This document shows positions 8,855-29,060 of a stretch of 29,060 nt of DNA, piece by piece. The DNA lies in IMG/VR virus record IMGVR_UViG_3300046008_000316, positions 1 to 29,060 of that record; one strand, 5' to 3'. This DNA comes from a virus. How positions within the stretch are numbered: the first letter of the stretch is position 1; every line of letters starts with the position of its first letter. A model generated the notes under the pieces. That model was not told where the DNA came from, searched no databases, and was given only the letters and a program-made list of their open reading frames with translations. The translations under genes were made by a program, and so were the position numbers.

Positions 8855-10454
8855 GGTTTTACGGCTTTCTGATACAGGCGGTGAGATTCCTAAGGGGTAT
8901 AAGATTCACGATGGTGATATTTTAGTTCCTAGTAATACTAATGTGGTGTGGACACCCTCAAAAGGTTCTCAAACTTTAGCATTAAATTGTCCTGCTCAAA
9001 TCATTCTCTATAGCGGATCGCGCGGCAATGGCAAGAGCGACTGTCAGATTTTAAGGTTCAGGAAGCTAGTTGGGATGGGCTATGGTAGGTATTTAAGAGG
9101 TATTATTGTAGACCGTACTTACGGTGCGCTTGATGATCTTGTAAGCAAATCAAAACGATATTTTCCTGCTTTTAATGATGGTGCAAAGTTTTATTCATCA
9201 AAAGGCGAATATAAATGGGTTTGGCGCGATGGGGAAGAATTACTTTTCAGAAGTATTGCAGATGAGAATGATTATCAAAAACTTCACGGTCAAGAATTTC
9301 AGTATATAGGTATTAACGAAATCTCACAATATCCAGACCTTTCAGTATTGGATTTATTATCGTCTTTAAATAGAACATCATTTGTTCCTAGCGAACACCC
9401 TAGAGAGGATGGAACAATTCCTCCAGAAATCCCCCTGTGTATATTTCTCACGAGTAATCCGACAGGACGCTCTGCACTTGAAGTTAAACGTAGATTCGTA
9501 GATGTAGGTAAAAACGGAGAAATTGTAAAACGAGAGGTTAAAATTTTTAACCCTCGCACACAAAAAGAAGAAATTATAGTTAAAACACAGTGTCATATAT
9601 TCGGTTCATATAAAGAAAATACAAAATTATCACCAGAATATGTAGCTGATTTAGAGTCAATTAGGGATGAAAAGCTCCGTAAAAAGTGGCTTTTAGGGCA
9701 GTGGGACGGTGTTGGCGAAGATGATGGGATGTATGCTGATGTATATGATAAAGATATTCACATTGTAGAACCTTTTGATATTCCAAAAGAATGGAAAATA
9801 GATAGGTGTATGGACTTTGGGGAATCTAGTCCTAGTAGTATTGGATATTTTGCTGAAAGTAATGGTGAAGATATTATTTTGCGTAACGGTAAAACTCGCT
9901 CAACTGTAAAAGGCGATTTGTTTTATTTTTCTGAAATATACACTTGTCTTGATGGATATTTAAACAAAGGAACTCGCATACTACCTCATGATTTAGCAAA
10001 AATGATAACTGAACATGAATTGTCTATAGGAATTTACGATAGAGTTATTCCTGGTGTAGCTGATACTGCAATCTTTTCTAACAACATGGGTAACTCTGTG
10101 GCAGGAATGATGGATAAACCTGTGACAATAGGTAATAAAGTTTATCCAGGTGTAAAATGGCGCAGATTAGACTCTTTAAAGAAACCAGGTAGTCGTGTAG
10201 ATGGTGTTAAAAAGATTCGCGAACGGTTTGCTAATGCTAAAACAACCCCAGAAAGACCGTTTCGAGATAAGCCTGCGCTATTTATATTCAACACCTGTAA
10301 GTATTTCATAGATATTATACCTTATAGTGTCCGTGACCCGAAGAACCCTGATGATGTGATTGGTTCAGGAGACCATATAAATGATATGCTTAGATACAAA
10401 TTGCTATCACTGAATACAGGCATGACATCTGGTAAAACAGTAGGCTTGACATAA
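8847..10454 (+). CDS. terL: Terminase large subunit
   Basis: A 535-residue packaging motor. The ATPase domain has a Walker A-like SGSRGNGKS (56-64), Walker B IGINE (154-158) and the coupling motif LTSNP (201-205). The nuclease domain begins around residue 318 with CMDFGE (321-326), whose Asp is the first metal-binding residue, and further acidic residues follow (PGVADTAIF, SGDHINDML). The protein translocates DNA into the prohead and cuts it at packaging. GGGAGG at 8840-8846 directly precedes ATG 8847. The gene end carries the promoter for the downstream endonuclease (TTGACA at 10446). Confidence 0.95.
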   Translation: MSKVLRLSDTGGEIPKGYKIHDGDILVPSNTNVVWTPSKGSQTLALNCPAQIILYSGSRGNGKSDCQILRFRKLVGMGYGRYLRGIIVDRTYGALDDLVSKSKRYFPAFNDGAKFYSSKGEYKWVWRDGEELLFRSIADENDYQKLHGQEFQYIGINEISQYPDLSVLDLLSSLNRTSFVPSEHPREDGTIPPEIPLCIFLTSNPTGRSALEVKRRFVDVGKNGEIVKREVKIFNPRTQKEEIIVKTQCHIFGSYKENTKLSPEYVADLESIRDEKLRKKWLLGQWDGVGEDDGMYADVYDKDIHIVEPFDIPKEWKIDRCMDFGESSPSSIGYFAESNGEDIILRNGKTRSTVKGDLFYFSEIYTCLDGYLNKGTRILPHDLAKMITEHELSIGIYDRVIPGVADTAIFSNNMGNSVAGMMDKPVTIGNKVYPGVKWRRLDSLKKPGSRVDGVKKIRERFANAKTTPERPFRDKPALFIFNTCKYFIDIIPYSVRDPKNPDDVIGSGDHINDMLRYKLLSLNTGMTSGKTVGLT

Positions 10455-15688: not shown

Positions 15689-15741
15689 AATCTACATGGG
15701 TGGATTACCAAATACTTTACAATTTCTCACATGGGTGGAAA
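15689..15741 (+). promoter_or_regulatory. Twin hairpins / repeat in the capsid 5' leader
   Basis: ACATGGGTGGA occurs twice (15694-15704 and 15729-15739), 35 bp apart. Each copy is framed by short complementary arms: AATC...GATT (15689-15706) and TTTC...GAAA (15723-15741). The loop CAUGGG resembles the CAAUGGUG loops in the scaffold leader. It lies in the untranslated leader, 40-95 nt before the start codon. Confidence 0.6.
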
Positions 15742-15783
15742 TACATGAAAACACATCAAATTTAATTTTAGAGGAATTATACT

Positions 15784-16800
15784 ATGGCTACTGCCACACA
15801 GCTTTCAGCGTTAATCGTACCACAAATCTTCACTCCGTATGTATTAAAAGAAACGGAAACTAAATCAAAACTAATCCAATCAGGTGCAATTGCTCGTTCA
15901 CCTTTCTTGGATAATTTCTTAACTGGTGGCGGTAACGTAGTTACTATGCCTTTCTGGAAAGACCTTTCTCGTTCAGGTTCTAACGTATCAAGTGATGATG
16001 ATGCAACAAACTCAACTGCACGTCCATTCACTGCTGCTTCAATCACTCAACACAGATTGTCACGCAACGTATCTTACACTTCTACTGACTTAGCTGGTGA
16101 CATTGTAGGTGATGACCCATTACGTCGAGTTGTAAGTCGTGTATCTGACTTCTGGGCTTGGGATATTCAAAACAACGTAGTATCTACATTAAAAGGTTTA
16201 TTCGCTGACAACGCTGCTGCACCAACTGGTTCAGAACACGTTGCTAACGACATGACTGTTGATATTAAAGGTGCTTCATACACTGCGGGTGTAACGTCAT
16301 TCAGTCAAGATGCTTTCGTTGACTCATTGATGACTATGGGTGATAGCTACAATAACTTAGGTGTTATCTGGTGTCATTCTGTTGTTCATGCTCGTATGAT
16401 TAAAGAAGATAGTTATGCGTTAATGCCTGATTCAGAAGGCAAATTAACTATCCCAACATACATGGGTAAATTAGTTATCGTTGACGATATGTTACCACGT
16501 CCTTCTACTGGTGTATTTGAAACATGGATTCTTGGTCAAGGTGCTATTGAGTTAGGTTTAGGTTCACCTAAAAACCCAACTGAAGTATGGCGTAATCCTG
16601 CTGCTGGTAACGGCGGTGGTACTGAAATTCTTTACAGCCGTATGGAATCTGTTGTTGCTCCAGCTGGTACTTCTTATGTGGGTACAGCAACTGTAGGTGG
16701 TGCATCTAATGCTACATTAGAAACAGCAGCATCATGGTTGCGCGTATATCCAGAACGCAAACAAATCCCAATCGCACGTTTAATTACACGCGAGTTCTAA
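15784..16800 (+). CDS. Major capsid protein
   Basis: A 338-residue protein downstream of portal and scaffold. It begins with MATATQLSALIVPQIFTPYV, followed by a segment rich in polar residues (SNVSSDDDATNSTARPFTAA) and the ITQHRLSRNVSYTSTDLAGD region, a pattern of capsid proteins of the HK97 fold in this phage type. Its strong promoter, long leader and GAGGA site indicate high expression. The predicted product has no separate protease or delta domain; the scaffold is a separate gene. A terminator follows the stop within 10 bp. Confidence 0.92.
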   Translation: MATATQLSALIVPQIFTPYVLKETETKSKLIQSGAIARSPFLDNFLTGGGNVVTMPFWKDLSRSGSNVSSDDDATNSTARPFTAASITQHRLSRNVSYTSTDLAGDIVGDDPLRRVVSRVSDFWAWDIQNNVVSTLKGLFADNAAAPTGSEHVANDMTVDIKGASYTAGVTSFSQDAFVDSLMTMGDSYNNLGVIWCHSVVHARMIKEDSYALMPDSEGKLTIPTYMGKLVIVDDMLPRPSTGVFETWILGQGAIELGLGSPKNPTEVWRNPAAGNGGGTEILYSRMESVVAPAGTSYVGTATVGGASNATLETAASWLRVYPERKQIPIARLITREF

Positions 16801-16806
16801 GATTCT

Positions 16807-16846
16807 CCTTCACCTCTCTATAAACATAGAGAGGTGAAGGTTTTAT
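16807..16846 (+). terminator. Strong rho-independent terminator
   Basis: A 15-bp perfect stem (CCTTCACCTCTCTAT / ATAGAGAGGTGAAGG) with an AAAC loop and TTTTATT. It follows the capsid gene. No new promoter is seen before 16867, so downstream genes may depend on partial read-through. Confidence 0.9.
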
Positions 16847-16866
16847 TATAAGATAAGGATTATAAA

Positions 16867-17418
16867 ATGCTAGAATTATTAAAAACGCTAGACCCAGCAG
16901 ATGATACATTGTGGACGGAAGATGGATTACCGTCTTTAAGCGCAGTACAAGCGTTAGTAGGTGACAATGCAATTACTCGTGATGATATTAACAAAGTGGC
17001 GTTAGGTTTAGTACGCGCTAATGTGGCTGAATATACTGTACCTGCAAAGAAAGTTAAAAAAGCAAAAGACGAAGAAGTTGTTGTAGCTCCAGAACCTGTC
17101 GTAGGACAGCCTCAAGACGCTTTAATTGCAAAAGTTGCTCAAGTTAGAGCAGAGTTATCAGCTAAATTGGAATTAAAAGTTCAATTGGAAAGTGAATTGA
17201 CACAATTAAACCAAGAGTTGTTTGGTTTAGAGATTCAATTAAAACCTGTTGATACGAGTGCAAGCAATGCTGAAGCATTAGCTGGTTATGCTCAAGCAGC
17301 GCAAGCTGAACGTGAAGCAAAAGCAATTAAGATGCAAAAAATGATTGACTCAGGTTTATCGTTAAATGAAGTAAAAGATTTACTCGGTATGAATCGCAAA
17401 CGTAAGATTGAGATTTAA
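16867..17418 (+). CDS. Head-region protein with coiled coil (183 aa)
   Basis: The N-terminal 50 residues have the pattern DPADDTLWTEDGLPSLSAV and VGDNAITRDDINKVA, which I recognise from uncharacterised phage proteins encoded near the capsid gene. A Lys/Ala/Pro-rich linker follows (70-95), then a long coiled coil (about 100-175) and a basic end (GMNRKRKIEI). It is probably a minor head or assembly protein. AAGGAT precedes ATG 16867. Confidence 0.7.
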   Translation: MLELLKTLDPADDTLWTEDGLPSLSAVQALVGDNAITRDDINKVALGLVRANVAEYTVPAKKVKKAKDEEVVVAPEPVVGQPQDALIAKVAQVRAELSAKLELKVQLESELTQLNQELFGLEIQLKPVDTSASNAEALAGYAQAAQAEREAKAIKMQKMIDSGLSLNEVKDLLGMNRKRKIEI

Positions 17419-17420
17419 TC

Positions 17421-17741
17421 ATGAGTTCCTTTTTCAGTTATGTTCAAGATGATACCGCTACAGGCGGTGTAGAACGCTTAGTTGACAGTGATGTTACAAG
17501 CGTACCTGCTAGAAGTCGCACCTTATATGCTCCTGCTGGTTCAACTCTGTGCGTTAATGTATCTGGTACTGCTACTGTGGTGATTAAGAGCAATCCATTC
17601 GCTGATGCAGCTAAAGATGTAACACTTACTTCTGTTTCTGCTAGTACAGAATATGTCATTGCTTCAGCAAAACACGTCTTAATTGATGTGACGGCTGTAT
17701 CAGGCACTGTGACTGCTAAATTGATTTGTAACGAGGATTAA
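17421..17741 (+). CDS. Beta-rich small virion-type protein (106 aa)
   Basis: Begins 2 bp after the previous stop. The product is rich in Val, Thr and Ser with alternating hydrophobics (TLCVNVSGTATVVIKSN, VLIDVTAVSGTVTAKLICN), typical of a beta-sandwich. A head decoration or fibre-attachment role would fit its place just behind the capsid genes, but there is no family assignment. Confidence 0.65.
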   Translation: MSSFFSYVQDDTATGGVERLVDSDVTSVPARSRTLYAPAGSTLCVNVSGTATVVIKSNPFADAAKDVTLTSVSASTEYVIASAKHVLIDVTAVSGTVTAKLICNED

Positions 17742-17746
17742 CAGGT

Positions 17747-18124
17747 ATGTCAGCATATATCCAAGACATGAGAGTTGGTGATGATTATAAGTTTTCTATT
17801 GTCAGACAAGGTTTAGACACATTACCTTTAGATATTACAGGGTATAAATTCTGGATAACTTTAAAACGCTCTTTCGATGACTTGGATGCGGATGCTGTGC
17901 TTCAATTTAGCGTAACAGCTGGTGATAATGCAGGTGATGACTTACTTAATGGATTATGTATTGTGCATATACCTGCTTCAATTACGAAAGATGTTCCAGT
18001 AGGTAAATACTTTTGGGATATTCAAGAATCAGCGTTAGGTGGTCAAATCACAACTGTGTTACCACCACTAGCTGATTATAAAGATAAAATCAATGTTTAT
18101 CCAGAGGTTACGAGAGCTATATGA
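17747..18124 (+). CDS. Beta-domain phage structural protein (125 aa)
   Basis: A short protein with MRVGDDYKFSIVRQG, a DITGYKFWITLKRS strand pair and IPVGKYFWDIQ-like ending (PASITKDVPVGKYFWDIQES). This order (low-complexity start, D-I-T-G-x-x-F-W-x-T-L-K, later P-x-G-x-Y-x-W-D-I-Q) occurs in immunoglobulin-like or BppU-like domains of phage receptor or baseplate parts. Here it lies in the head region and may anchor the fibre protein encoded next, with which it overlaps by ATGA. Confidence 0.7.
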   Translation: MSAYIQDMRVGDDYKFSIVRQGLDTLPLDITGYKFWITLKRSFDDLDADAVLQFSVTAGDNAGDDLLNGLCIVHIPASITKDVPVGKYFWDIQESALGGQITTVLPPLADYKDKINVYPEVTRAI

Positions 18125-19287
18125 CAGCAATTACCGTTACCTTAGAAGAATCAATAATTACCGTAACTCCTATTGTTGAAACACAAACTATCATAATTGG
18201 TGGAGGTGGTTCAGGTAGCGGAGCTGTAAATCTCAACGGTTTAGCAGATGTTGCAATTACAACGCCAACAACAGGGCAAGTATTAAAGTTTGACGGAACT
18301 AAGTTTGTTAACGCAAATGATGAAATTGGGGGCAATCTTTCGCTAGATAATTTAACCGATGTAGTTATAACATCTCCTACGAGCGGGCAAGTATTAAAGT
18401 TTAATGGGACGAACTTTATCAACGATACCGATTATTCAGTTTCAACATTAAATGACTTATCTGATGTGACTATAGCGGCTTTAGAAGTCGGTCAAGTTCT
18501 AAAGTATGACGGTGTAGACTTCAAAAACGCTTTTGATGACAACGTGTTACGCCAATATGTACACAATGCTTCAGGTAACGTTTTGCTAAAAGGTAAAGCT
18601 GTTTATGTGAGTGGTTCACAAGGTCAAAGAGTAACTGTAGGTTTGGCTCAAGCAAATGGTGAATCAACATCAAGTAAAACAATTGGTATAGTTCAAAATG
18701 ATATATCTGCTAATGGGAACGGATATATTGTAACTGAAGGAATGATAACCAATATAGATACATCTGGAGCTATAAATGAAGGTGATGCTGTTTATTTATC
18801 ACCAACTGTGGCAGGCGGATTCGTGTATGGATACTCAAACCATCCTGTTGCTCCAAATCATTTAGTTTATATCGGTATTGTAGTTAGAAAACACGCTTCT
18901 ACAGGTTCAATTCTCGTAAAAGTTCAAAACGGATTTGAAATAGATGAATTGCACGATGTACTTATTGTATCACCAACAAATAGACAAGTAATAGGGTATG
19001 ATTCAGTAAGTTCTATTTGGAAAAATCAAACATTACCAAGCTATGAAGTATTCACAGAAGGATTAACCTTAATTGTGGATAATAAGATTCAATTAACGCA
19101 TAAACCAGAAGGAAATTTAGTTTTAAATATGGCTATGGTTTATGACGCAAACGATTATACATCACAGTCAGATTTATATAATAATGTTACTGTGACGAAT
19201 GTATCAACAACATATTATGCAACATTTAGTGTAACAGGTTTAAACGGTAAATACGGTGTAGTTTCATATTTAAGAAGGATTAACTAA
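18121..19287 (+). CDS. Fibre-like virion protein with four repeats (388 aa)
   Basis: Coupled to the preceding gene by ATGA. After a Gly-rich linker (IIIGGGGSGSG, 25-34) come four copies of a repeat with the pattern L-x-x-L-x-D-V-x-I-x-x-P-x-x-GQVL-x-x-DG-x-x-F: at about 38-64, 75-101, 110-136 and, more degenerate, 274-302. Between them is a beta-rich domain (about 140-270) with VSGSQGQRVTVGLAQA and GDAVYLSPTVAGGFVYG. Such repeats are common in tail or head fibres. Because it follows the capsid gene and precedes connector genes, a capsid-attached fibre is more likely than a tail fibre (inference). It overlaps the next gene by 1 nt. Confidence 0.75.
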   Translation: MTAITVTLEESIITVTPIVETQTIIIGGGGSGSGAVNLNGLADVAITTPTTGQVLKFDGTKFVNANDEIGGNLSLDNLTDVVITSPTSGQVLKFNGTNFINDTDYSVSTLNDLSDVTIAALEVGQVLKYDGVDFKNAFDDNVLRQYVHNASGNVLLKGKAVYVSGSQGQRVTVGLAQANGESTSSKTIGIVQNDISANGNGYIVTEGMITNIDTSGAINEGDAVYLSPTVAGGFVYGYSNHPVAPNHLVYIGIVVRKHASTGSILVKVQNGFEIDELHDVLIVSPTNRQVIGYDSVSSIWKNQTLPSYEVFTEGLTLIVDNKIQLTHKPEGNLVLNMAMVYDANDYTSQSDLYNNVTVTNVSTTYYATFSVTGLNGKYGVVSYLRRIN

Positions 19288-20456
19288 TGAGTAGAGTTAT
19301 GCTTTACAGTGGATTACCTAACGCAACGTATGATGCAGGTGGTAGATTACGCACATCGCAATTAACAACATTGTTCGATGGAAAGACGTTAAACGAAGAT
19401 AACGCTCAAATGTGGCACATTGTAGGCACAGGTAATAATTCATTTACACACAATACAAATGTGATGTCTGTTACAAGCGGTCAGTATTTAATTCGTCAAA
19501 GTAATCTATTCACACAATACTACAGTGGTAAATCACAATTAGTTGAATTAACTTTTGATAATTTTCAACCTCAAACAAATGTAACTAAACGAATCGGTTA
19601 TTATAGTAGTTCTGCGACAGCTCCTTATAATACTACCTTAGATGGTTTCTTTTTAGAATCGTCAAACGGCGTGGTTAGTATTGGTGTTTATAACGCAGGT
19701 ACGTTAATAGCGTCAATTCCTCAATCATCATGGAACGGAACAGTTGCGACTTATGATTGGACTAAATTTACTGTCGCTATATTCGACTTCTTATGGTTAG
19801 GTGGAACTGAACTTAGATTGTTCTTAAAATTACCGAATGATGAATTTGTGTTAGCACACACTTTCTATCACGCAGGTTCAGGTGATGGAACATTTATTAA
19901 GTCACCAAATCAACCAGTACGATATGAAATTCGTTCAACGACTGGCACAGGTGCAATGACATCGGTTTGCTCACAGGTATCTACAGAAGGTAGTAATTTT
20001 GAAAGTGGCGAATCGAGAGCTTTGTACTCACCTGTACTTGTGAATTGTAACACAGTAAGCACTATCTACGCATTAAAAGGAATTAGAAAACGTACTACAT
20101 TTAGAGATGTAGCGGTAAAGATAACTAAAATTGGAGCAGTGAACGGCACTACTGCTGATTCAGGTGTTTTATTTTTACTAAAAGACCCAGTGTTATCAGC
20201 TCCTTTAACGTATGTGGATGCTGGTAAAATTCAAGACGGTACTGCTGCAACATCCATTACTGTATCTTCTACAGGAACTGTTATTTTTGCAATACCTATA
20301 TCTAATGTGGCTGAATCTGCTGAAATAACAGAAAACATTTCTACTTGGTTGCAAAATAAAATCGATAATACGATGCACGAATATGTACTTGCATTTATGC
20401 CTTACACAAGTAACCAATCGGTGAGCGCAACCCTAAGCATCAAACTATACGCATAG
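19287..20456 (+). CDS. Conserved beta-rich virion protein (389 aa)
   Basis: Begins at the last base of the preceding stop codon (TAATG). Features are GGRLRTSQLTTLFDGKTL, QMWHIVGTGNNSFTHNT, SGKSQLVELTF, KRIGYYSSS and later QPVRYEIRSTTGTGAMTSVCSQVSTEGS. This order (RLR-x-S-x-x-TLFD, KR-G, PVRYEI, C-S-x-V-x-x-EG) occurs in a family of phage structural proteins of unknown location. The C-terminal 120 residues are a separate beta domain. With the preceding fibre-like protein it probably forms a surface appendage. Confidence 0.75.
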   Translation: MSRVMLYSGLPNATYDAGGRLRTSQLTTLFDGKTLNEDNAQMWHIVGTGNNSFTHNTNVMSVTSGQYLIRQSNLFTQYYSGKSQLVELTFDNFQPQTNVTKRIGYYSSSATAPYNTTLDGFFLESSNGVVSIGVYNAGTLIASIPQSSWNGTVATYDWTKFTVAIFDFLWLGGTELRLFLKLPNDEFVLAHTFYHAGSGDGTFIKSPNQPVRYEIRSTTGTGAMTSVCSQVSTEGSNFESGESRALYSPVLVNCNTVSTIYALKGIRKRTTFRDVAVKITKIGAVNGTTADSGVLFLLKDPVLSAPLTYVDAGKIQDGTAATSITVSSTGTVIFAIPISNVAESAEITENISTWLQNKIDNTMHEYVLAFMPYTSNQSVSATLSIKLYA

Positions 20457-20484
20457 ATGTGGTTGACAGACTTCACCATGAACA

Positions 20485-20519
20485 TATTTCTTGACAAAAT
20501 GCAAGAAATAGTGTAGTAT
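20485..20519 (+). promoter_or_regulatory. Promoter with operator-like inverted repeat
   Basis: TTGACA (20491-20496), 17 bp, TAGTAT (20514-20519). The -35 overlaps a perfect 9-bp inverted repeat (TATTTCTTG 20485-20493, CAAGAAATA 20502-20510) with an 8-bp spacer, a plausible operator. The gene at 20545 follows with an AGGAG ribosome binding site. Confidence 0.68.
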
Positions 20520-20544
20520 GCGCTGTACAATTTAGGAGATAATA

Positions 20545-21075
20545 ATGGCATTTATCGTTGAAGATGGGACAGGTTTAAGTAATGCGAATAGTTATGTTAG
20601 TGTAGCATACGCTAATGCTTATTTTGCAGAACGAGCTGTTACGTCTTGGGATTCGTTAGACGATGAAATTAAATTAGCTTCTTTAATTAAAGCAACAGAT
20701 TATTTTGAATTACGCTGGTCACATTTGTTAATCAGTGAAATTTACAATGAAACACAATCATTATCATTCCCTAGAGTTTATATCGGTACACCTATTTTTG
20801 ATGAAATAGATACCGAACTTCTTGTCGGTTACACAATTCCTGAAAAGATTAAACGTGCTACCTGTGAGTACGCTATTCGTGCGACCACTTCGCAACTTGT
20901 TGCGGATATTAGCACAACAGCAGGTCAATCTACTCGCGTTAAGATTGGACCGATTGAAAAAGAAACAAACTTTACATCAAATCAAAAGAAACCTGAAACA
21001 TTCGCAACGTATCCAAGTGCAGATAATCTAGTAAAATCTTATTTAAAGTCTACTTCAGGGAGGGTAATTAAATGA
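20545..21075 (+). CDS. Head-tail connector (DnaT-like/Ad1-type)
   Basis: A 176-residue protein beginning MAFIVEDGTGLSNANSYVSV, with YANAYFAERAVTSWDS, then KLASLIKATDYFELRW and LSFPRVYIG. This N-terminal pattern is shared with phage proteins often named DnaT-like but encoded in the position of head completion proteins; a connector role is more probable by context. It is the first of four overlapping or nearly overlapping genes, in the standard adaptor, stopper, completion, terminator order. Confidence 0.82.
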   Translation: MAFIVEDGTGLSNANSYVSVAYANAYFAERAVTSWDSLDDEIKLASLIKATDYFELRWSHLLISEIYNETQSLSFPRVYIGTPIFDEIDTELLVGYTIPEKIKRATCEYAIRATTSQLVADISTTAGQSTRVKIGPIEKETNFTSNQKKPETFATYPSADNLVKSYLKSTSGRVIK

Positions 21076-21434
21076 TGAATTGGAATGATTTAGTTATTAC
21101 TGCTGACGAATTGATTAAAGAATTTGGTCAACCTATGACAATTAAACGAGTTACCCAAGGTGAATACGACCCTGCTACAAGTTTAATAACAAACACAACA
21201 ACAAATGTAATAACAACTGGAGTAATCTTTGATTACGGTGAATCCGATATTAACGGAACAACTATCCTGAAAGGTGATAAGAAAGTCTATGTTACTGCTA
21301 ACGGCGTAACACTGATTACAACCAATGACTCTATTGTGGTGGGTACGCAAGAATATCATATTACAGATGTTATGCAAACAAGTCCTGCTGGTGTGAACTT
21401 ATTGTGGGAATTGAAAGTTAGAGGTTTGTCGTGA
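21072..21434 (+). CDS. Head closure / stopper protein
   Basis: Overlaps the preceding stop (ATGA), with a GGGAGGG ribosome binding site. The 120-residue product is beta-rich and has GQPMTIKRVTQGEYDPATS, KKVYVTANGV, a VVGTQEYHI strand and WELKVRGL at the end, as in phage head-tail stopper proteins with a small beta barrel. It caps the portal channel after packaging. A second ATG directly follows the first, so the start may be one codon later. Confidence 0.78.
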   Translation: MMNWNDLVITADELIKEFGQPMTIKRVTQGEYDPATSLITNTTTNVITTGVIFDYGESDINGTTILKGDKKVYVTANGVTLITTNDSIVVGTQEYHITDVMQTSPAGVNLLWELKVRGLS

Positions 21435-21910
21435 TTACATTTAATAGAGCATTAGTTATAGAAAATGTAAATACTCTCACCGATAAAGTAATTAAGCAAA
21501 CATTAGAAAATGTAGTTGATGAACTAATGTTCTTATCACCTGTAGGGCAACCTGACCAGTGGGCTGGTTCAGTTCCTAAAGATTATGAACCAGGTAAATA
21601 CAAAGCAAATTGGCAATACAGTGTAGGTTCTCCAGAATCTGACGTTATTGAAGAAGTAGATGGTTCAGCTGCAATGGAAATCAATTGTGCAACAGGTAAA
21701 AAATTAAAATCACAAATTAAATCACAAAAAACAACAATTGGTAAAACGCATTACTTCACAAATAATGTGTCTTATGCAAGTGCAATTGAATATGGTTCAG
21801 CTATTCACAATCCACAAGCACAAACAGAACCTCATGCTGTAGCAGGATTAACGATTCAGCATTTACCTTTAGCGTTAGAACGAGCTAAGAAAAAGGTACT
21901 TGGAAAATGA
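21431..21910 (+). CDS. Tail completion protein (HK97 gp10-like)
   Basis: Starts at GTG 21431, overlapping the stop of the stopper gene. The 159-residue product has the family features: SPVGQPDQWAGSVPKDYEPGKYKANWQYS (about 35-63), a central KTHYFTNNVSYASAIEYGSA and a C-terminal PHAVAGLTIQ. The YA-x-x-I-EYG motif is characteristic of gp10-like tail completion proteins, which sit at the head-tail joint. Confidence 0.85.
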   Translation: MITFNRALVIENVNTLTDKVIKQTLENVVDELMFLSPVGQPDQWAGSVPKDYEPGKYKANWQYSVGSPESDVIEEVDGSAAMEINCATGKKLKSQIKSQKTTIGKTHYFTNNVSYASAIEYGSAIHNPQAQTEPHAVAGLTIQHLPLALERAKKKVLGK

Positions 21911-22320
21911 GCCAAATCAAAATAAAACAAGCCTTAGAAGCTGGTTTAGCTACGCTAACGCCAAAACTAGATACACAATACGAAAATGTAGCTTACACAC
22001 CAAAAGCAGGTGTACCGTATCAATCAGCTTATTTAATAATGAATAGACCTGATAATCCAACATTAGGTGATGACTTTTACAGAGAAAAAGGGATTTTTCA
22101 AGTAACACTTCGTTATCCATTATTAGGTGGTACTGTGGCTATTATGACACAGGCTGAAAAAATTAGACACCTCTTTAGACGAGGACAAGTCTTTACAAAG
22201 GATTCTATCAAAGTTTTGATAGATAAAACCCCCGAAATTCGGACACTTCCAAATGAGAGTGACCGATTCATAGTAGTAGTTAGGATTTATTTTAGCTGCG
22301 ATATTCACTTAATCGATTAA
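21907..22320 (+). CDS. Tail terminator protein (DUF4128-type)
   Basis: A 137-residue protein overlapping its neighbour by ATGA. It has LATLTPKLDTQYENVAYTP, QSAYLIMNRPDNPTLGDDF, the strand KGIFQVTLRYPLLGG and RFIVVVRIYFSCD at the end, the alternating alpha/beta pattern of the tail-terminator family. It forms a hexameric ring ending tail-tube growth and joining the tail to the head. Its position between completion and tail tube genes agrees. Confidence 0.82.
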   Translation: MSQIKIKQALEAGLATLTPKLDTQYENVAYTPKAGVPYQSAYLIMNRPDNPTLGDDFYREKGIFQVTLRYPLLGGTVAIMTQAEKIRHLFRRGQVFTKDSIKVLIDKTPEIRTLPNESDRFIVVVRIYFSCDIHLID

Positions 22321-22335
22321 GAGAGGATTTATAAA

Positions 22336-24153
22336 ATGGCAAATTTAATTGCTAATGGTGTATTTAAGAAACTTATTTACGCTAAAGAGTTTGAATTAGG
22401 AAAATTACAAGATGTAGCAGGTGAAGGTTTGAAATCTCCAGCTACCGCTAGTGTAGCAGTAGGTATCACCTCTGGTCAAACAACAGGTGTAGGTACCGCT
22501 GCAAACCAAGTTTCTTTCACTGGTTTATTGGTTGAAGGTCAAACAATTTTGATTGGTTCAGATACATACCGTTTAACAGGTGTATCTAACTCAGGTGGTA
22601 ACGGAACAGCATCGACTATCACATCTGTAACAACAGGTTTAACACAATGGGTAAATAGTCATACTGCTGGTGCAAAAGTTACTGTGTTAGCTAGTACAGA
22701 AGAATTTAAAGTCACTACTGGTACAACAGGTGCAGTTGCTCCAAACTTAAACACTACTGCGACTGTTACTACAGGTACAATCAATACTACAACTGTTGTA
22801 ATTAACACATCTGCGGTTGTTATTCCGTTAGGTCAAAAATTCACCATTACAACTGGAGATACTTCTACAACTGTGTATGAAGTAGTTGGTTCTACAGGTG
22901 GTACAACAAATTCATCTGGTGCAACATTAACTGTATATCCTGCGTTGAAAGCAGCTGCTACAGGTGGTATTACATTCAAAACAGGTACGTCTGCACAGTT
23001 CTTACGTCGTGTAACATCTAACTTGGATTTAAAATTACAAACATTTAAATCTAACGAAATAAGATCTGATATGCAACGTAGTTCGCAATCTGTAGGTTCG
23101 CGTAGTGTTGATGGTACGATTTCAGGTGAATTATCAAACAGAACTTATTCTGAATTCATGGAATCAGTATTGCGCCGTAAATTTACCAACCAAGCGGATG
23201 TTGCTATCGCAGCAAGCGGATTCAGTGGCGCTAAAGATTCACCTCGTATCACAATCAGCTTTGCAAGTGACCCTACAGTTTTAACTAAATTGAAAGTAGG
23301 TGACGTAGTCTATTTCACCACTTCTAGTGCAATGGGTTATGAAAACCGCAACATGATTGTGACAGGTGTTACTGCAACACAAGTTACGTTAGATTTGTTA
23401 ATTGGTGAATTAACAGCAGATTTAGTTACTTCTGCGATTACATTCACGATTAAATTGCGCGGTAAAAAAACATACTTCCCTAAAACTGGTCACACTATTG
23501 ATTCGTATGCAATCGAGCATTTCTACGAAGATATTGGTGAATCTGAATTGTTTAAAGGTTGCCGTGCTACCCAAATGTCATTGAAAATGTCACCGTCTGC
23601 TATGGCGACAATCGATGTGATGTTTATGGGTACTGGTATGACTACCAAACAATCACAACAATTAGCTGGTGCAAAAGACGCTGGTACTGATAACGTGGTT
23701 GCTGCTACTAACGGCGCTGTATATCTTAAAGTTAAAAAAGGTAACACTGCTGTATTAGAACGTATCGGCTTATTGACTTCACTTGATGTAACAATTAACT
23801 TGAACGGTTCTAATGCACAGGTAATTGGTTCAGATACTACCCCAGATGTGTTTTTGGGAGCTGTGGATATTCAAGGTAATACAGCTTTGTATTTCCAATC
23901 AGGTCAATACCGTGATATGTTCTTAAACCAAGAAGAAGCATCTTTGGTTGCTGTATTCCGTTCTGACGGTAACGTAGATGGTGAGTTCATCTCTATCGTA
24001 TTACCTAAAATCCAAGCGTCTGGCGCATCTCGTGATGACGGTGAAAAAGGTTTGATTATGACCATGCCTTTCACAGCATTATTGTACGATACTGCTTCAG
24101 GTGTGACGAACTTTGAAAATACATCTATTCAAATTCAAGACAGTTCATTATAA
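22336..24153 (+). CDS. Major tail tube protein with large N-terminal insertion
   Basis: A 605-residue protein, AGAGGA ahead of ATG 22336. The family framing is intact: MANLIANGVFKKLIYAKE (1-18), QFLRRVTSNLDLKLQTF (221-237), EIRSDMQ (241-247), RSVDGTISGELSNRTYSEFM (256-275), KVGDVVYF, RGKKTYFPKTGH, SELFKGC and C-terminal DDGEKGLIMTMPF. Tail tube proteins of this type usually run directly from the first segment to the LRRVTSNL segment. Here about 185 residues of Thr/Gly/Val-rich beta sequence (about 32-217) are inserted, apparently two Ig-like domains. They may decorate the tail surface. A terminator follows. Confidence 0.9.
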   Translation: MANLIANGVFKKLIYAKEFELGKLQDVAGEGLKSPATASVAVGITSGQTTGVGTAANQVSFTGLLVEGQTILIGSDTYRLTGVSNSGGNGTASTITSVTTGLTQWVNSHTAGAKVTVLASTEEFKVTTGTTGAVAPNLNTTATVTTGTINTTTVVINTSAVVIPLGQKFTITTGDTSTTVYEVVGSTGGTTNSSGATLTVYPALKAAATGGITFKTGTSAQFLRRVTSNLDLKLQTFKSNEIRSDMQRSSQSVGSRSVDGTISGELSNRTYSEFMESVLRRKFTNQADVAIAASGFSGAKDSPRITISFASDPTVLTKLKVGDVVYFTTSSAMGYENRNMIVTGVTATQVTLDLLIGELTADLVTSAITFTIKLRGKKTYFPKTGHTIDSYAIEHFYEDIGESELFKGCRATQMSLKMSPSAMATIDVMFMGTGMTTKQSQQLAGAKDAGTDNVVAATNGAVYLKVKKGNTAVLERIGLLTSLDVTINLNGSNAQVIGSDTTPDVFLGAVDIQGNTALYFQSGQYRDMFLNQEEASLVAVFRSDGNVDGEFISIVLPKIQASGASRDDGEKGLIMTMPFTALLYDTASGVTNFENTSIQIQDSSL

Positions 24154-24185
24154 CAACTTCTTCTCCCGAAGTTAGGTTAGGGATT

Positions 24186-24212
24186 AGGGTCGCTTCGGTG
24201 ACCCTTTTCTTT
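24186..24212 (+). terminator. Terminator with TTCG tetraloop
   Basis: AGGGTCGC-TTCG-GTGACCCT (24186-24205; 8-bp stem with one G-T pair) followed by TTTTCTTTG. It closes the connector to tail-tube unit. Confidence 0.88.
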
Positions 24213-24235: not shown

Positions 24236-24265
24236 TTGACAGCTTATACCTAACTGTGGTAATAT
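24236..24265 (+). promoter_or_regulatory. Promoter of the short tail chaperone
   Basis: TTGACA (24236-24241), 18 bp, TAATAT (24260-24265) preceded by TGTGG, almost identical to the -10 element at 24841. The leader holds a small hairpin AATCG/CGATT near 24276-24291. Confidence 0.8.
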
Positions 24266-24330
24266 GCCTTACAAATCGGTAAAACGATTCAATCTTAATT
24301 AACTAACCTAATTAACAAAGGGAAAATAAC

Positions 24331-24732
24331 ATGGCTATTTCATTATCAAGTTTAAACGTAGTAAAAGCATCTGAAACTGCACAAAAATTAGAAATCATTG
24401 ACGAAGAAACTGGTGCATTAACTGGTATCGTCTTAGACGTAATTGGTTCAAATTCAGATAAGATTCAAAAAATCATCACAAAAGTAGCTAACGCTAAACG
24501 TCAAGCTGATAAACTTGCTGAGAAAAAAGGTAAAGATGCACCAGTATCTAAAGTTGAAGATGACATCGAGTTCATTCAAGAATTGACCGCTGCTCGTATT
24601 GTGGGTTGGTCAGGTATCGAAGAACCATATTCAGTTGAAAATGCGCTAGAGCTTATCAAAATCAACCCTGTGATTCGTGAACAAGTTACAACCTTCTCGG
24701 ATAACGTAAGTAACTTCGTTAAGAAAAAATAA
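24331..24732 (+). CDS. Short tail assembly chaperone (G-like)
   Basis: A 133-residue protein directly after the tail tube gene, the place of lambda gpG. After a short N-terminus come DKIQKIITKVANAKRQADKL (43-62) and an acidic-aromatic block ending VGWSGIEEPYSVENALEL (91-108), then NPVIREQV. The W-x-GIE-x-P...N-P-x-I-R-E-Q signature is typical of the G part of tail chaperones, which coat the tape measure during tail assembly. The frame ends AAG AAA AAA TAA. A -1 shift on the A-run would add only nine residues, so this gene has no T domain of its own. Start ATG 24331 has AAGGGAAA upstream. Confidence 0.82.
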   Translation: MAISLSSLNVVKASETAQKLEIIDEETGALTGIVLDVIGSNSDKIQKIITKVANAKRQADKLAEKKGKDAPVSKVEDDIEFIQELTAARIVGWSGIEEPYSVENALELIKINPVIREQVTTFSDNVSNFVKKK

Positions 24733-24756
24733 TCCTTTCTCTCCAAAGGAAAATTT

Positions 24757-24795
24757 AGAAACCCGTTAAAGAAATTCTTGACGGGTTTCTTTTTG
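24757..24795 (+). terminator. Rho-independent terminator
   Basis: AGAAACCCGT (24757-24766) pairs with ACGGGTTTCT (24781-24790), followed by TTTTG. The loop is 14 nt and contains a smaller AAGAA/CTT pairing. It separates the short chaperone from the KilA-N cassette. Confidence 0.82.
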
Positions 24796-24816
24796 TGTGC
24801 GATAATCATATTTAGC

Positions 24817-24846
24817 TTGACATTCTTGGTATATCTGTGGTAGTAT
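24817..24846 (+). promoter_or_regulatory. Promoter of the KilA-N cassette
   Basis: TTGACA (24817-24822), 18 bp, TAGTAT (24841-24846) preceded by TGTGG. The expected transcript starts near 24853 and has an untranslated leader of about 180 nt. Confidence 0.8.
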
Positions 24847-24875
24847 TACGTCAGATTTTCAAGAATCTCAAATCA

Positions 24876-24995
24876 ACTTAATTGTGACATTTTAAGTTAA
24901 TGCTCATAATAATTAGATGAATCGGAAATAACCAATACCGATTAACCCATATTTGAGGGTCTTGAAACATCTAATTATTATGAGCATTTTTATTG
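24876..24995 (+). ncRNA. Long structured leader (possible small RNA or attenuator)
   Basis: A 21-bp perfect inverted repeat (24899-24919 and 24968-24988) closes a 48-nt inner part that itself contains hairpins AATCGG/CCGATT (24920-24943) and ACCC/GGGT (24945-24960), giving a three-way-junction shape. A smaller hairpin AACTTAA/TTAAGTT (24876-24899) precedes it, and TTTTTATTG follows. The whole looks like a terminator placed after a structured RNA, within the leader of the KilA-N gene, so it may be a stable RNA, an attenuator or a riboregulator. The gene start is 43 bp downstream. No known family is recognised. Confidence 0.6.
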
Positions 24996-25031
24996 CTTAA
25001 ATTTTATCAATCCTAATAAAAGGAAACTGCC

Positions 25032-25817
25032 ATGTCACAATTAGTAACTTTAAACTACAACGACTTAACAGTCTTATTTCAATCAGAAGATGCCTATTTA
25101 AACGCAACTTTAATCGCTAAACAATTCGGTAAGAAAACTGAAAATTATCTTCGTACGGACAGCACAAAAGAATACCTAACTGCGTTAGAAAAGCATTTAA
25201 ATTCAATTGCGCCAAAAAGCGTAAATCAACAAAATCAATTAGTTACGGTTAAAGTTGGCGCACCTGAAAACGGCGGTGGAACTTGGTTACATCCTAAACT
25301 TTCAATTCATTTTGCAAGATGGTTAAATGCGGATTTCGGTGTTTGGTGTGATATGGAAATTGAAAAAATGCTACAACCAAAACAAACACCAATTGCCATC
25401 ACAATGACACCTAAAACTGCGATTCCTTATTTGGAAGGTTATTTAGATGCAGCTAAACTTTTTCAAATTCCATTACACTTAGCACAAATTGAAAGCGCGA
25501 AGTTGACTTTTAAAGACACCAACATTGATTTCTCACCGATGCTAAAATTAGCGTCTACACAAGATGATATTCCTGAAGTTGAAATTATGTTAGAACCAAC
25601 AGAACTTGGAAAGCGTTTAGGGTATTCTGCTGCTGAAATGAATAGAGTGTTAGAACGATTAGGTTTGCAAACGCGACCTAATGGAAAAGATTGGATTGTG
25701 ACTGATTTAGGCAAACCTATTTCTTTCTATCACAGTTGGACGAAATTTGGTAAATCAGGGTACAATTACAAATGGAATGTTTCTGAAGTAGAGAAACTGT
25801 TACCTAAATCTATTTAA
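25032..25817 (+). CDS. KilA-N domain protein (antirepressor-like)
   Basis: A 261-residue protein. The KilA-N domain spans about residues 9-112 (SEDAYLNATLIAKQFGKK, YLRTDSTKEYL, GGGTWLHPKLSIHFARWL, FGVWCDMEIEKML), a DNA-binding domain of phage antirepressors and transcription regulators. The C-terminal part (about 185-261) has a second conserved block with EPTELGKRLGYSAAEMNRVL, GLQTRPNGKDWIVTDLG and YKWNVSEVEKLL, an antirepressor C-terminal-type domain. AAGGAA precedes ATG 25032. The gene has a private promoter, structured leader and terminator, and separates two tail chaperone genes, so it looks like an inserted cargo gene (moron). Confidence 0.9.
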   Translation: MSQLVTLNYNDLTVLFQSEDAYLNATLIAKQFGKKTENYLRTDSTKEYLTALEKHLNSIAPKSVNQQNQLVTVKVGAPENGGGTWLHPKLSIHFARWLNADFGVWCDMEIEKMLQPKQTPIAITMTPKTAIPYLEGYLDAAKLFQIPLHLAQIESAKLTFKDTNIDFSPMLKLASTQDDIPEVEIMLEPTELGKRLGYSAAEMNRVLERLGLQTRPNGKDWIVTDLGKPISFYHSWTKFGKSGYNYKWNVSEVEKLLPKSI

Positions 25818-25824
25818 CACTAAC

Positions 25825-25860
25825 AACCTAGCTTATTTTGTAATAAGCTAGGTTTCTTTC
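25825..25860 (+). terminator. Rho-independent terminator
   Basis: A 13-bp perfect stem (AACCTAGCTTATT / AATAAGCTAGGTT) with a TTGT loop and a T-rich tail. It closes the KilA-N cassette. Confidence 0.92.
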
Positions 25861-25876
25861 TTTCTGTCTATCAATC

Positions 25877-25924
25877 TTGACATTTAGGTCTAAGTGTGCA
25901 ATAATACTTAGACCTAAATGTCAA
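25877..25924 (+). promoter_or_regulatory. Promoter within a perfect 19-bp inverted repeat
   Basis: TTGACA (25877-25882), 17 bp, AATAAT (25900-25905) preceded by TGC. The arms 25877-25895 and 25906-25924 are perfectly complementary over 19 bp; the 10-bp loop holds the -10 element. Transcripts from this promoter would start inside the right arm and could not form the hairpin, whereas read-through RNA could. The repeat may be an operator or an RNA hairpin that limits translation from read-through RNA. Confidence 0.7.
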
Positions 25925-25936
25925 ACTCACACCTCG

Positions 25937-26653
25937 ATGATTTCTATAGACGAACACCCATATTCCTTTACAGTACAGCAAGACCTTAGTGATGATGTTA
26001 TGATTTTCACTATCGTATCTTCACGTTCTGCAAAAGTTATGGAACTAGTTAAGAATAAAGTCACCACCGCTAAACGTAATTTAGAACTATTCAAACTCGA
26101 TGACGACACGCTAATTATTGAAGATGATGTGAATGATATTGAATCACATTCTGCTGCAAGTCGATTAGTTTCATGGCAAGGTATCGAAGATGAATTAACA
26201 CATGAAGCTGCCTATTATTTGTGTAAGAATTACCCAGAAATTAGAAAACAAATCATCTATCATTCAGATTTATTAGCGGAACATTTAGATAAATGTGTCG
26301 AAAAGCTGATTGAATTTGCAAAGAACGAATTATTTTTATCAGAAAAACAAAAAGACGGTTCGTCATTACGCGAACATCTTTTAAATATTCAAAAACAATA
26401 TAACGTTACTCCCCCTGAGCTTGTCGAAATAGAGGTTAGCTATTTAGTCATGTACTTGTGGGAGTCCTTTTTAGAACTAAATTCAACTCGTCAAAGTGGT
26501 ATGGGTGTGAATGCAATTAGTTACAGTGAAATTAAAGCATATTGTGAATTGACACAAACACGCTTCAGTCCTTACGAAATCAAAGTTATCAAAATGCTCG
26601 ATAGAGCGTTCTTAGAACATTACAATAAACCTACTCCAGAATCATCGAAATAG
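25937..26653 (+). CDS. Long tail assembly chaperone (GT-like)
   Basis: A 238-residue protein upstream of the tape measure gene. Residues 36-116 repeat the plan of the short chaperone (KVTTAKRNLELF, RLVSWQGIEDELTHEAAYYL, YPEIRKQI). A helical spacer follows, then the T-like domain at about 160-230: VEIEVSYLVMYLWESFLEL, TRQSGMG, ISYSEIKAYCELTQTRFSPY and EIKVIKMLDRAF. The SRQSG-G-x-x-ISYSEIEAW pattern is the hallmark of T-type chaperone domains. Start ATG 25937 is chosen because the only upstream start lies in the promoter repeat. It has no strong ribosome binding site. The tape measure gene starts 12 bp after its stop. Confidence 0.85.
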   Translation: MISIDEHPYSFTVQQDLSDDVMIFTIVSSRSAKVMELVKNKVTTAKRNLELFKLDDDTLIIEDDVNDIESHSAASRLVSWQGIEDELTHEAAYYLCKNYPEIRKQIIYHSDLLAEHLDKCVEKLIEFAKNELFLSEKQKDGSSLREHLLNIQKQYNVTPPELVEIEVSYLVMYLWESFLELNSTRQSGMGVNAISYSEIKAYCELTQTRFSPYEIKVIKMLDRAFLEHYNKPTPESSK

Positions 26654-26665
26654 AGGAATATCATC

Positions 26666-29060
26666 ATGGCAGAAAATACAGAAGCAGTTGGCATTAGTAT
26701 TGACGTAACGGTTAAGAAAGATAAATTTGAATCGTCAATGTCTGCTATTGAAGCAAGTCTTGGTAAAGTTGACGACATGATGAAAAAACTTGAGAAAATG
26801 GAAATTTCTTTAAAGTTCGATGATTCAGCAACAAAGTTATTAACAAATCATTTAAATGGTATAACAAATGCTGTTAGTGCAATTAACAATCAACAAATTA
26901 AACTTAATGTCGATACAGGTTCGTTAAAATCAATTTCGTATGATTTCAAAGCTATTGGTGACGCATCGCAAGCGGTAGGTGGTGTGATGACGGAATCTAT
27001 CAATAAAGCGATTACACAAAACGTAAAAGATGTTAAAGCAGGTTTGAACGAGATTAAGAAATTAGAGGAACAATCTGCTAAAGAAATTGCAGCTGTCAAT
27101 AAAGAATCTAAAAGTAGTAAAGGTTTAGATATAGCGATTGCTATAGCAGATATTAAGAAATACACTTCTGCCGCTATTGCGGCTAAACAAAAAGGATTTG
27201 ATGAAGAATTTGCAGCACAGAAAAAGCACGCTGACGACCAATTAAAAGTATTAGAACAAACTAATGCTATTAAACTCTTATCTCACAAACAAGCAAACGC
27301 TATTGAACTAGCTGAATATAAACTAGGTTTGATTCAACGATTAGCGACATCTAAAGATGCTGCTGAAAAAGAAATTGCACAGATTAAAGCGAATGTAGCA
27401 AATAATACAGCAGCTAAGAAATCAGGTTATGCTGAAGATGTAGATTTATATAAAAAAGCAATGCGGTTGGAAAACGAAGCGTTGAAACTAGGTTTATCAG
27501 CCAAAGTAGAAATGTATGAAAAACAACGCTTAGATATTAAAGATAGACTTCAAAAACAATCACAAGATTTGTTGCAAGAATTAGAAAAACAAAAAAGAAT
27601 GCTTGCTACGGTCACATCAACTACTCCAAACATTAGTGCAGCTACTAGAAATTCAGCATTATCAGAAGTATCAAAAATAAACAACTTAATCCGTGATGAA
27701 CAAGCGAGAATGAGTTCACAATTAAAAGCAGATGCAGACCAAGCCCATAGAGACGAATTATCGCAATTACGTCAACTAGGTGCATCAAAAGTAGATATAG
27801 TAAAAGAAACAAATAGAAGCATGATTCAAGCGATGTCTGAATCAGCAAAACAAAATAGAGTGTTGAGTTCGACAGTCGGTTATCAAATGACCGATAGAAT
27901 GAGTACGTCTGTTCAAACATCAACTAAAAATCCTAGAGCTGATTTAGAAGCTGTCTTAGCATCAGCAAAACAAATCCAATACATTACCGCAAGCAGTTTA
28001 TCAGAACAACTAGCTGAATATAATAGTTATATTCGCAAACGTAACGCTGCTATGCGTAAAGGTAATGAAGAATTAGCGACATATAATCAATTAGAAGCGA
28101 ATCGTATTAACGGTAGTCTTGTATCAGCTATCGGTAATGTGACTAGACAAATTGATGAAGAAATTAAAAAACTACAACAGTTACAATCAGTTGCTAGTAA
28201 TGGTGTAGTGTTAAACAGTATCAATAAAGAAATTGAAGCTCTGCAACGTAGAAAAGCTGTAGCTGAAACACAACGAGTAACTGTGAGTAATACAGGTTTA
28301 AAAGCCGATACAGATGTACAAGTACAACGTCTAGCTGGTCAAACAGGCAATGTGAACGGTCTAACTGATTCAATCAACAAACTTCAAATGGCTATGATGG
28401 CGTTAGGTGTGACGTTATCAGTTAGAAGTGTGATGGAATATGCTGACCATTGGTTGCATTTTACTAATGCAGTTGTGATTGCTACAGAAAAGACTGGTGG
28501 TGCAGTTCAAATGCAAGAACGCTTGTTTAACTTAGCACAAGATTCACGCGCGCCTTTAGAATCAATCACATCTATCTTTATGCGTATGGCTCGTGCTGGT
28601 GAAGCAATGGGTGTATCGCAAGAGAAAACAGTTAAAGCTATCGAAATGGTAACAAAGGCTCTTGCTATCATGGGTACAGACCCTAAGATGGTTAGAGGTG
28701 GTTTGCTACAGTTAGAACAAGCATTAGGTGGTGTAGTTGTGCGAGGTCAAGAGTTCAAGTCTATCTTGGATAGTATGCCTATTATCACACAATCTGTTGC
28801 TAAAAACTACATGGAAGCGGATAAAGCGATTCGTTTAAAAGAAGCTGCTATGCGCGGAGCATCGAAAGCAACATTAGATGCAATCAAAGCAGAAGAAACA
28901 CACGCTTGGACTATTTCACAACTTCGTAATGAAATGTACGCAGGTAATGTGATGTCTAAAGTGTGGATGGAAGCAATGTTATTATCTGCTAACGAAATCA
29001 ATGAAACCTTCGCTAAAACACATAAAACATTTGCACAAGCGTTTCAGTACATGGAATCTT
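26666..29060 (+). CDS. Tape measure protein (partial, N-terminal 798 codons)
   Basis: Open from ATG 26666 (AGAGGA upstream) to the end of the window with no stop. The first 560 residues are mainly coiled coil, Lys/Glu/Ala/Gln-rich (for example DRLQKQSQDLLQELEKQ-like stretches). From about residue 565 (28360 onward) comes a tape-measure N-terminal domain with INKLQMAMMALGVTLS, EKTGGAVQMQERLFNLAQDS, APLESITSIFMRMA and GGVVVRGQEFKSILDSMP. The protein sets tail length and is ejected with the DNA. Such a domain usually lies near the start of the protein, so the long coiled-coil extension ahead of it is notable. Confidence 0.9.
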   Translation, partial: MAENTEAVGISIDVTVKKDKFESSMSAIEASLGKVDDMMKKLEKMEISLKFDDSATKLLTNHLNGITNAVSAINNQQIKLNVDTGSLKSISYDFKAIGDASQAVGGVMTESINKAITQNVKDVKAGLNEIKKLEEQSAKEIAAVNKESKSSKGLDIAIAIADIKKYTSAAIAAKQKGFDEEFAAQKKHADDQLKVLEQTNAIKLLSHKQANAIELAEYKLGLIQRLATSKDAAEKEIAQIKANVANNTAAKKSGYAEDVDLYKKAMRLENEALKLGLSAKVEMYEKQRLDIKDRLQKQSQDLLQELEKQKRMLATVTSTTPNISAATRNSALSEVSKINNLIRDEQARMSSQLKADADQAHRDELSQLRQLGASKVDIVKETNRSMIQAMSESAKQNRVLSSTVGYQMTDRMSTSVQTSTKNPRADLEAVLASAKQIQYITASSLSEQLAEYNSYIRKRNAAMRKGNEELATYNQLEANRINGSLVSAIGNVTRQIDEEIKKLQQLQSVASNGVVLNSINKEIEALQRRKAVAETQRVTVSNTGLKADTDVQVQRLAGQTGNVNGLTDSINKLQMAMMALGVTLSVRSVMEYADHWLHFTNAVVIATEKTGGAVQMQERLFNLAQDSRAPLESITSIFMRMARAGEAMGVSQEKTVKAIEMVTKALAIMGTDPKMVRGGLLQLEQALGGVVVRGQEFKSILDSMPIITQSVAKNYMEADKAIRLKEAAMRGASKATLDAIKAEETHAWTISQLRNEMYAGNVMSKVWMEAMLLSANEINETFAKTHKTFAQAFQYMES

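Follow-up and report, generated by a model that had tools for sequence, protein, structure and literature searches.

Separate genes for the short and long tail assembly chaperones in a clade of uncultured siphophage-type viruses

A clade of siphophage-type viruses, known here from metagenome contigs without a cultured representative, is predicted to encode its tail assembly chaperones in two separate genes: a stand-alone gene for a short G-type protein (G) and, after it, a long gene in which a second G-type domain is joined in frame to a T domain (GT). Most long-tailed phages produce the short and the long chaperone from one gene through a programmed slip of the ribosome, and few recoding events in tailed phages are as well conserved as this frameshift. 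The proposal is built on four features that can be read from the DNA: the homology of the two genes, the lack of a route from the short gene into a T domain, the conservation of the arrangement across the clade and the differences between the two mRNA leaders. The clade quite probably makes both forms of chaperone from the two genes, with G in excess and with a role in tail assembly like that in lambda.

The window, meaning the whole stretch of DNA analyzed, comprises the whole of an IMG/VR virus record (29,060 bases), itself probably a genome fragment. A head-and-tail cluster with terminase, portal, scaffold, capsid, connector, tail terminator and tail tube genes lies upstream of the chaperone genes, which are placed between the tail tube gene (22336-24153) and the tape measure gene, the marker of the expected site of a chaperone locus (Table 1). 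The tail tube protein is 605 residues long, and matches to its relatives start only at about residue 203, so that roughly 200 residues form an N-terminal extension. The product of 18121-19287, encoded amid the head and connector genes, has tail-fibre-like PHROG matches. A family of TTGACA promoter-like sites, mostly with an extended -10 TG, recurs at 10446, 11805, 11932, 15651, 20491, 24236, 24817 and 25877, which suggests that the structural cluster is divided into many short transcription units. A megablast search of phages with positions 15700-24200 gave no match. Rfam and tRNA scans of the window were also empty, so no known self-splicing intron family was detected in it.

Table 1. Features of the chaperone region in the window.
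Feature	Position	Strand	Evidence or description
Promoter-like site for G	24236..24265	+	TTGACA, 18 nt, TAATAT; TG before second hexamer
Predicted hairpin, 5' end of G mRNA	24274..24289	+	ViennaRNA fold; start inferred from -10 box
Shine-Dalgarno-like site of G (AAAGGGA)	24317..24323	+	-5.3 kcal/mol duplex with 16S tail
Stand-alone G-type tail assembly chaperone gene (short form, TAC-N), 133 aa	24331..24732	+	PHROG 313; clade orthologues
Terminator-like hairpin after G	24757..24790	+	13-pair stem, T-rich tail
Promoter-like site, KilA-N gene	24817..24846	+	TTGACA, 18 nt, TAGTAT with TG
KilA-N domain gene between G and GT	25032..25817	+	Pfam KilA-N, E 1e-19; absent from most clade members
Terminator-like hairpin between KilA-N gene and GT	25825..25854	+	13-pair stem
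Promoter-like site for GT	25877..25905	+	TTGACA, 17 nt, AATAAT with TG; best of the region, 11 of 12
In-frame G-T fusion chaperone gene (long form, TAC-NC), 238 aa	25937..26653	+	BLASTP, Pfam
T domain of long gene	26309..26632	+	HMM built here, E 5e-46; same frame as G domain
Tape measure protein gene	26666..29060	+	Pfam TMP_3, E 3e-32; cut by record end

The first-pass annotation of this DNA had described two separate open reading frames with a shared G-type core, and both frames are present as described. The short protein matches the PHROG 313 family 'Tail assembly chaperone' (E 4e-16, residues 1-132) and has no Pfam match at E 1. The long protein combines a G-type domain with a following T domain, the latter recognized by Pfam Phage_TAC_18 (E 9e-19, residues 154-227) and absent from the short protein, in agreement with the earlier assignment of a T-like domain to the long protein only. 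The shared core is borne out by BLASTP, which aligns the two proteins with 33 of 102 positions identical (E 6e-12, residues 22-119 of the long protein), and by a profile-profile comparison of the two orthologue sets (probability 99.4, E 5e-22, 119 columns). An absence of similarity between the two G regions had been named as grounds for refutation, and the BLASTP result speaks against it. One motif was misread, in that the TAKR ascribed to the short protein is NAKR.

The AlphaFold2 models of G (pLDDT 87) and GT (pLDDT 92) share the same strand-strand-helix-helix-strand-helix-helix order, and the last helix of the G part of GT continues into T. In VIA-align, HK97 gp13 (2OB9) is the top row for the N-terminal part of GT (Z 7.5, rmsd 3.2, 94 aligned), followed by YqbN (3KLU, Z 4.7), and is also the top row for the G model, as a weak match (Z 4.8, rmsd 5.8, 100 aligned). 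Foldseek found nothing below E 2 for the G model in the PDB; the matches listed for the GT model among viral models include tape-measure and tail assembly chaperones. Searching the PDB with sequence profiles gave no credible match, with cullin hits at E 0.05 and weaker. In every pair tested, solo G, fused G and T each show a dN/dS ratio below 1 (synonymous sites are almost saturated in the distant pairs), an argument for both copies being functional.

A slip in the short gene leads to no T domain; the first-pass annotation had put the -1 frame at nine residues. Beyond the stop codon, the -1 frame is open for 8 codons and the +1 frame for 12, and neither holds a T domain. Judged by its reading frames, the short gene offers no way into a T domain through a -1 or a +1 slip, and the locus is not of the lambda type, in which T is reached by a slip from the G gene. 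It is very improbable that the short gene nevertheless slips near its A-rich end to give a slightly extended second product beside the GT gene. The window gene does end in AAG AAA AAA TAA, and that of one relative, L124, ends in TTA AAA AAA TAG, containing A-AAA-AAA, but the run is absent from most other clade members, and in nine clade representatives the alternative frames past the stop reach at most 17 codons and never a T domain.

Relatives of the window were collected by homology scans. Scans of virus contigs with single proteins (P0001, P0002 and the tape measure protein) yielded no confirmed relatives, and the T-domain alignment worked, identifying 17 virus contigs with T domains 63-67% identical; two further scans added more. 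Both genes are full or nearly so in 20 metagenomic virus contigs, and in 2 more they are cut by the contig end. In every one of these contigs G stands alone and GT, with its two domains in frame, comes after it; none has the usual arrangement. The remaining clade contigs carry one of the two genes only, adjoining the contig end. As far as these contigs can be read, the split pair is conserved across the clade.

The arrangement outside the clade is different. Both domains were recognized at 69 loci (11 annotated phages, 54 contigs of the first scan and L140-L143), and the T frame is always -1 or +1 relative to G; at a further group of loci, T alone was recognized by the profiles. This survey extends to homologues of the two domains, and each near-identical contig adds to the count. 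Scanning genome_contigs with alignment A2 gave no relative, and with alignment A4 a single Methylobacter MAG contig (L143), which has a -1 frameshift locus. In the Curvibacter and Limnohabitans phages, the sequence AACTTTCGA occurs at the junction of G and T, with T in the +1 frame (about 4180-4221 in L006 and about 4044-4085 in L007), and is a likely +1 slip site. The gathered loci allow -1, +1 and no frameshift to be compared inside one set of protein families.

The origin of the pair was addressed with a tree of G domains. A first tree that included long-branch rows broke up solo G; for the rebuilt tree, L009, L018, L021 and L141 were removed and fewer members of the +1 group were kept. In the rebuilt tree, solo G and fused G each form one clade (100/99 for both), and the split therefore predates the divergence of the sampled members. 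The G domains of Synechococcus and Caulobacter phages adjoin solo G in the best tree. This placement, together with the separate clades and the mere 33% identity between the two G domains of the window, would fit an origin of GT as a xenologue with the same function, that is, a second chaperone locus received from another phage in which G and T had become fused. Such an origin is a serious contender, if somewhat less probable than its opposite, given that a tree constrained to group solo and fused G is not rejected (AU p 0.47), that the scanned loci include no outside donor with G and T fused in frame and that the amino acid sequence of fused G evolves several times faster than that of solo G in the closest trio, which could by itself separate the clades. 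Of the earlier proposal that gene duplication replaced frameshifting, the part that stands is that two homologous genes, present clade-wide, take the place of the frameshift pair; the tree is compatible both with tandem duplication and with acquisition from another phage as the source of the second copy.

The space between G and GT in the window is occupied by a KilA-N gene that has a promoter-like site and a terminator-like hairpin of its own and that the first-pass annotation did not mention. In relatives without an inserted gene, the gap measures 136-183 bp (L023-L036 and L039; similar in L108). KilA-N or AntA genes fill the slot in the window and in L104 (6585-7373), L038 (4023-4811) and L124 (5564-6226). 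The KilA-N insertion is considered secondary because most clade members with the split pair lack it, and for the same reason it was rejected as the cause of the split. A KilA-N gene that broke up an ordinary frameshift locus, leaving the pair as a disrupted or decaying remnant, might be imagined from its position between the two window genes and from the regulators in the same place in the three relatives. It is scarcely credible when most members have the split pair with a short gap only, the long gene has a complete G domain of its own, which splitting could not create, and the dN/dS values are below 1. Domain shuffling within the slot is suggested by the window KilA-N protein, which matches the L104 AntA protein across its C-terminal 144 residues (73%) and, in its N-terminal part, the KilA-N protein of L124 (53% over 125 positions). 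A perfect 21-bp inverted repeat (24899-24988) also lies in the KilA-N leader.

Signals for expression were compared in nine representatives, which amount to about four independent leader sequences, with mRNA starts inferred from the -10 boxes. Near-consensus TTGAC-type promoters with an extended -10 precede both genes in all nine and do not favour G. The earlier suggestion that promoter strength fixes the G:GT ratio finds no support here, the GT promoter being at least as good as that of G. Hairpin-and-T sequences resembling the terminator-like hairpin of the window can be read after G in relatives. The leaders of the two genes differ. All nine G genes have a Shine-Dalgarno match (-5.3 to -6.4 kcal/mol) and leaders of 42-59 nt in which a hairpin is predicted where the mRNA would start. 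The GT leaders are 21-29 nt long and unstructured in eight of nine, and GT is without a Shine-Dalgarno site in eight of nine, the window included, the exception being L124 (-5.9 kcal/mol). The other window genes tested form Shine-Dalgarno duplexes of -3.9 to -11.6 kcal/mol. Folding z-scores of the leaders are ordinary. These differences suggest that the G:GT ratio may be set mainly at translation.

Other elements were seen around the GT start. A perfect 19-bp inverted repeat (25877-25924) spans the GT promoter and is a possible operator; its core has one near match, in the spacer of the G promoter (24244-24253). Short upstream reading frames that start with ATGTC, as judged by eye, overlap or closely precede the GT start in the window (25918-25989) and in the leaders of L038, L039 and L104.

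In the proposed mechanism, G and GT would each be transcribed from their own promoter, with a terminator between them, and GT would provide a second, faster-evolving G domain fused in frame with T. G would probably be in excess through its Shine-Dalgarno site and 5'-end hairpin, against a short GT leader mostly without a Shine-Dalgarno site. As in lambda, the G-type domain common to both proteins would then let many G and few GT molecules cover the tape measure protein, and tail tube subunits would be brought in by T. Both promoters look strong, the distance between fused and solo G is large (33% identity and long branches) and the GT gene of L124 is preceded by a Shine-Dalgarno site, all of which could be expected if G and GT divided the labour and were made in similar amounts, for example for a mixed spiral, with no lambda-type excess of G. 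This division of labour is rather unlikely, however, since GT has no Shine-Dalgarno site in eight of nine lineages, every other window gene tested has one and the lambda system, which uses a -1 frameshift, needs a crucial G:GT ratio of about 30 to 1 (PMC5009743).

It appears slightly favoured on balance that two independently transcribed genes replaced frameshifting, that control of the ratio moved to translation initiation and mRNA stability and that the gap between the genes became a landing site for KilA-N/AntA-type regulators. Lineages that have lost the chaperone frameshift help to show its purpose. If the excess of G is kept by other means here, selection preserves the ratio and not the slip.

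The pair resembles lambda gpG/gpGT and HK97 gp13 in its G-type N-terminal domain, its longer form with a C-terminal T and its location before the tape measure gene. It differs from lambda in having two genes and no frameshift in place of one gene and a -1 frameshift. Pasteurella phage Pm86, Mannheimia phage 1152AP2, Curvibacter phage P26059A and Limnohabitans phage DC31 carry G and T of these families at the corresponding position, but with a single G gene and T in the -1 frame (Pm86 and 1152AP2) or the +1 frame (P26059A and DC31). Chaperones without a frameshift are already known, with T4-like and some Microbacterium phages as precedents. Separate short and long chaperone genes were reportedly proposed for T4-like phages by Vladimirov and colleagues in 2022, and these are presumably T4 genes 26 and 51. 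Their products, gp26 and gp51, both match Pfam T4_baseplate and can be aligned with each other (E 2e-6); in both systems two related genes take the place of the frameshift. The T4 genes belong to another protein family and to a myophage and are divergently transcribed, unlike the present genes, which run in the same direction with a promoter each in a siphophage-type cluster. PRFect lists 342 SEA-PHAGES genomes with two chaperone genes and no joined frameshift gene, and its authors suggest that incomplete annotation lies behind many of these cases (PMC10885494). Some Microbacterium Cluster EA phages have two chaperone ORFs 'without an evident frameshift' (PMC7302621), which, by their description, are like the present pair in apparently being expressed separately and unlike it in not being reported as homologous G and GT genes.
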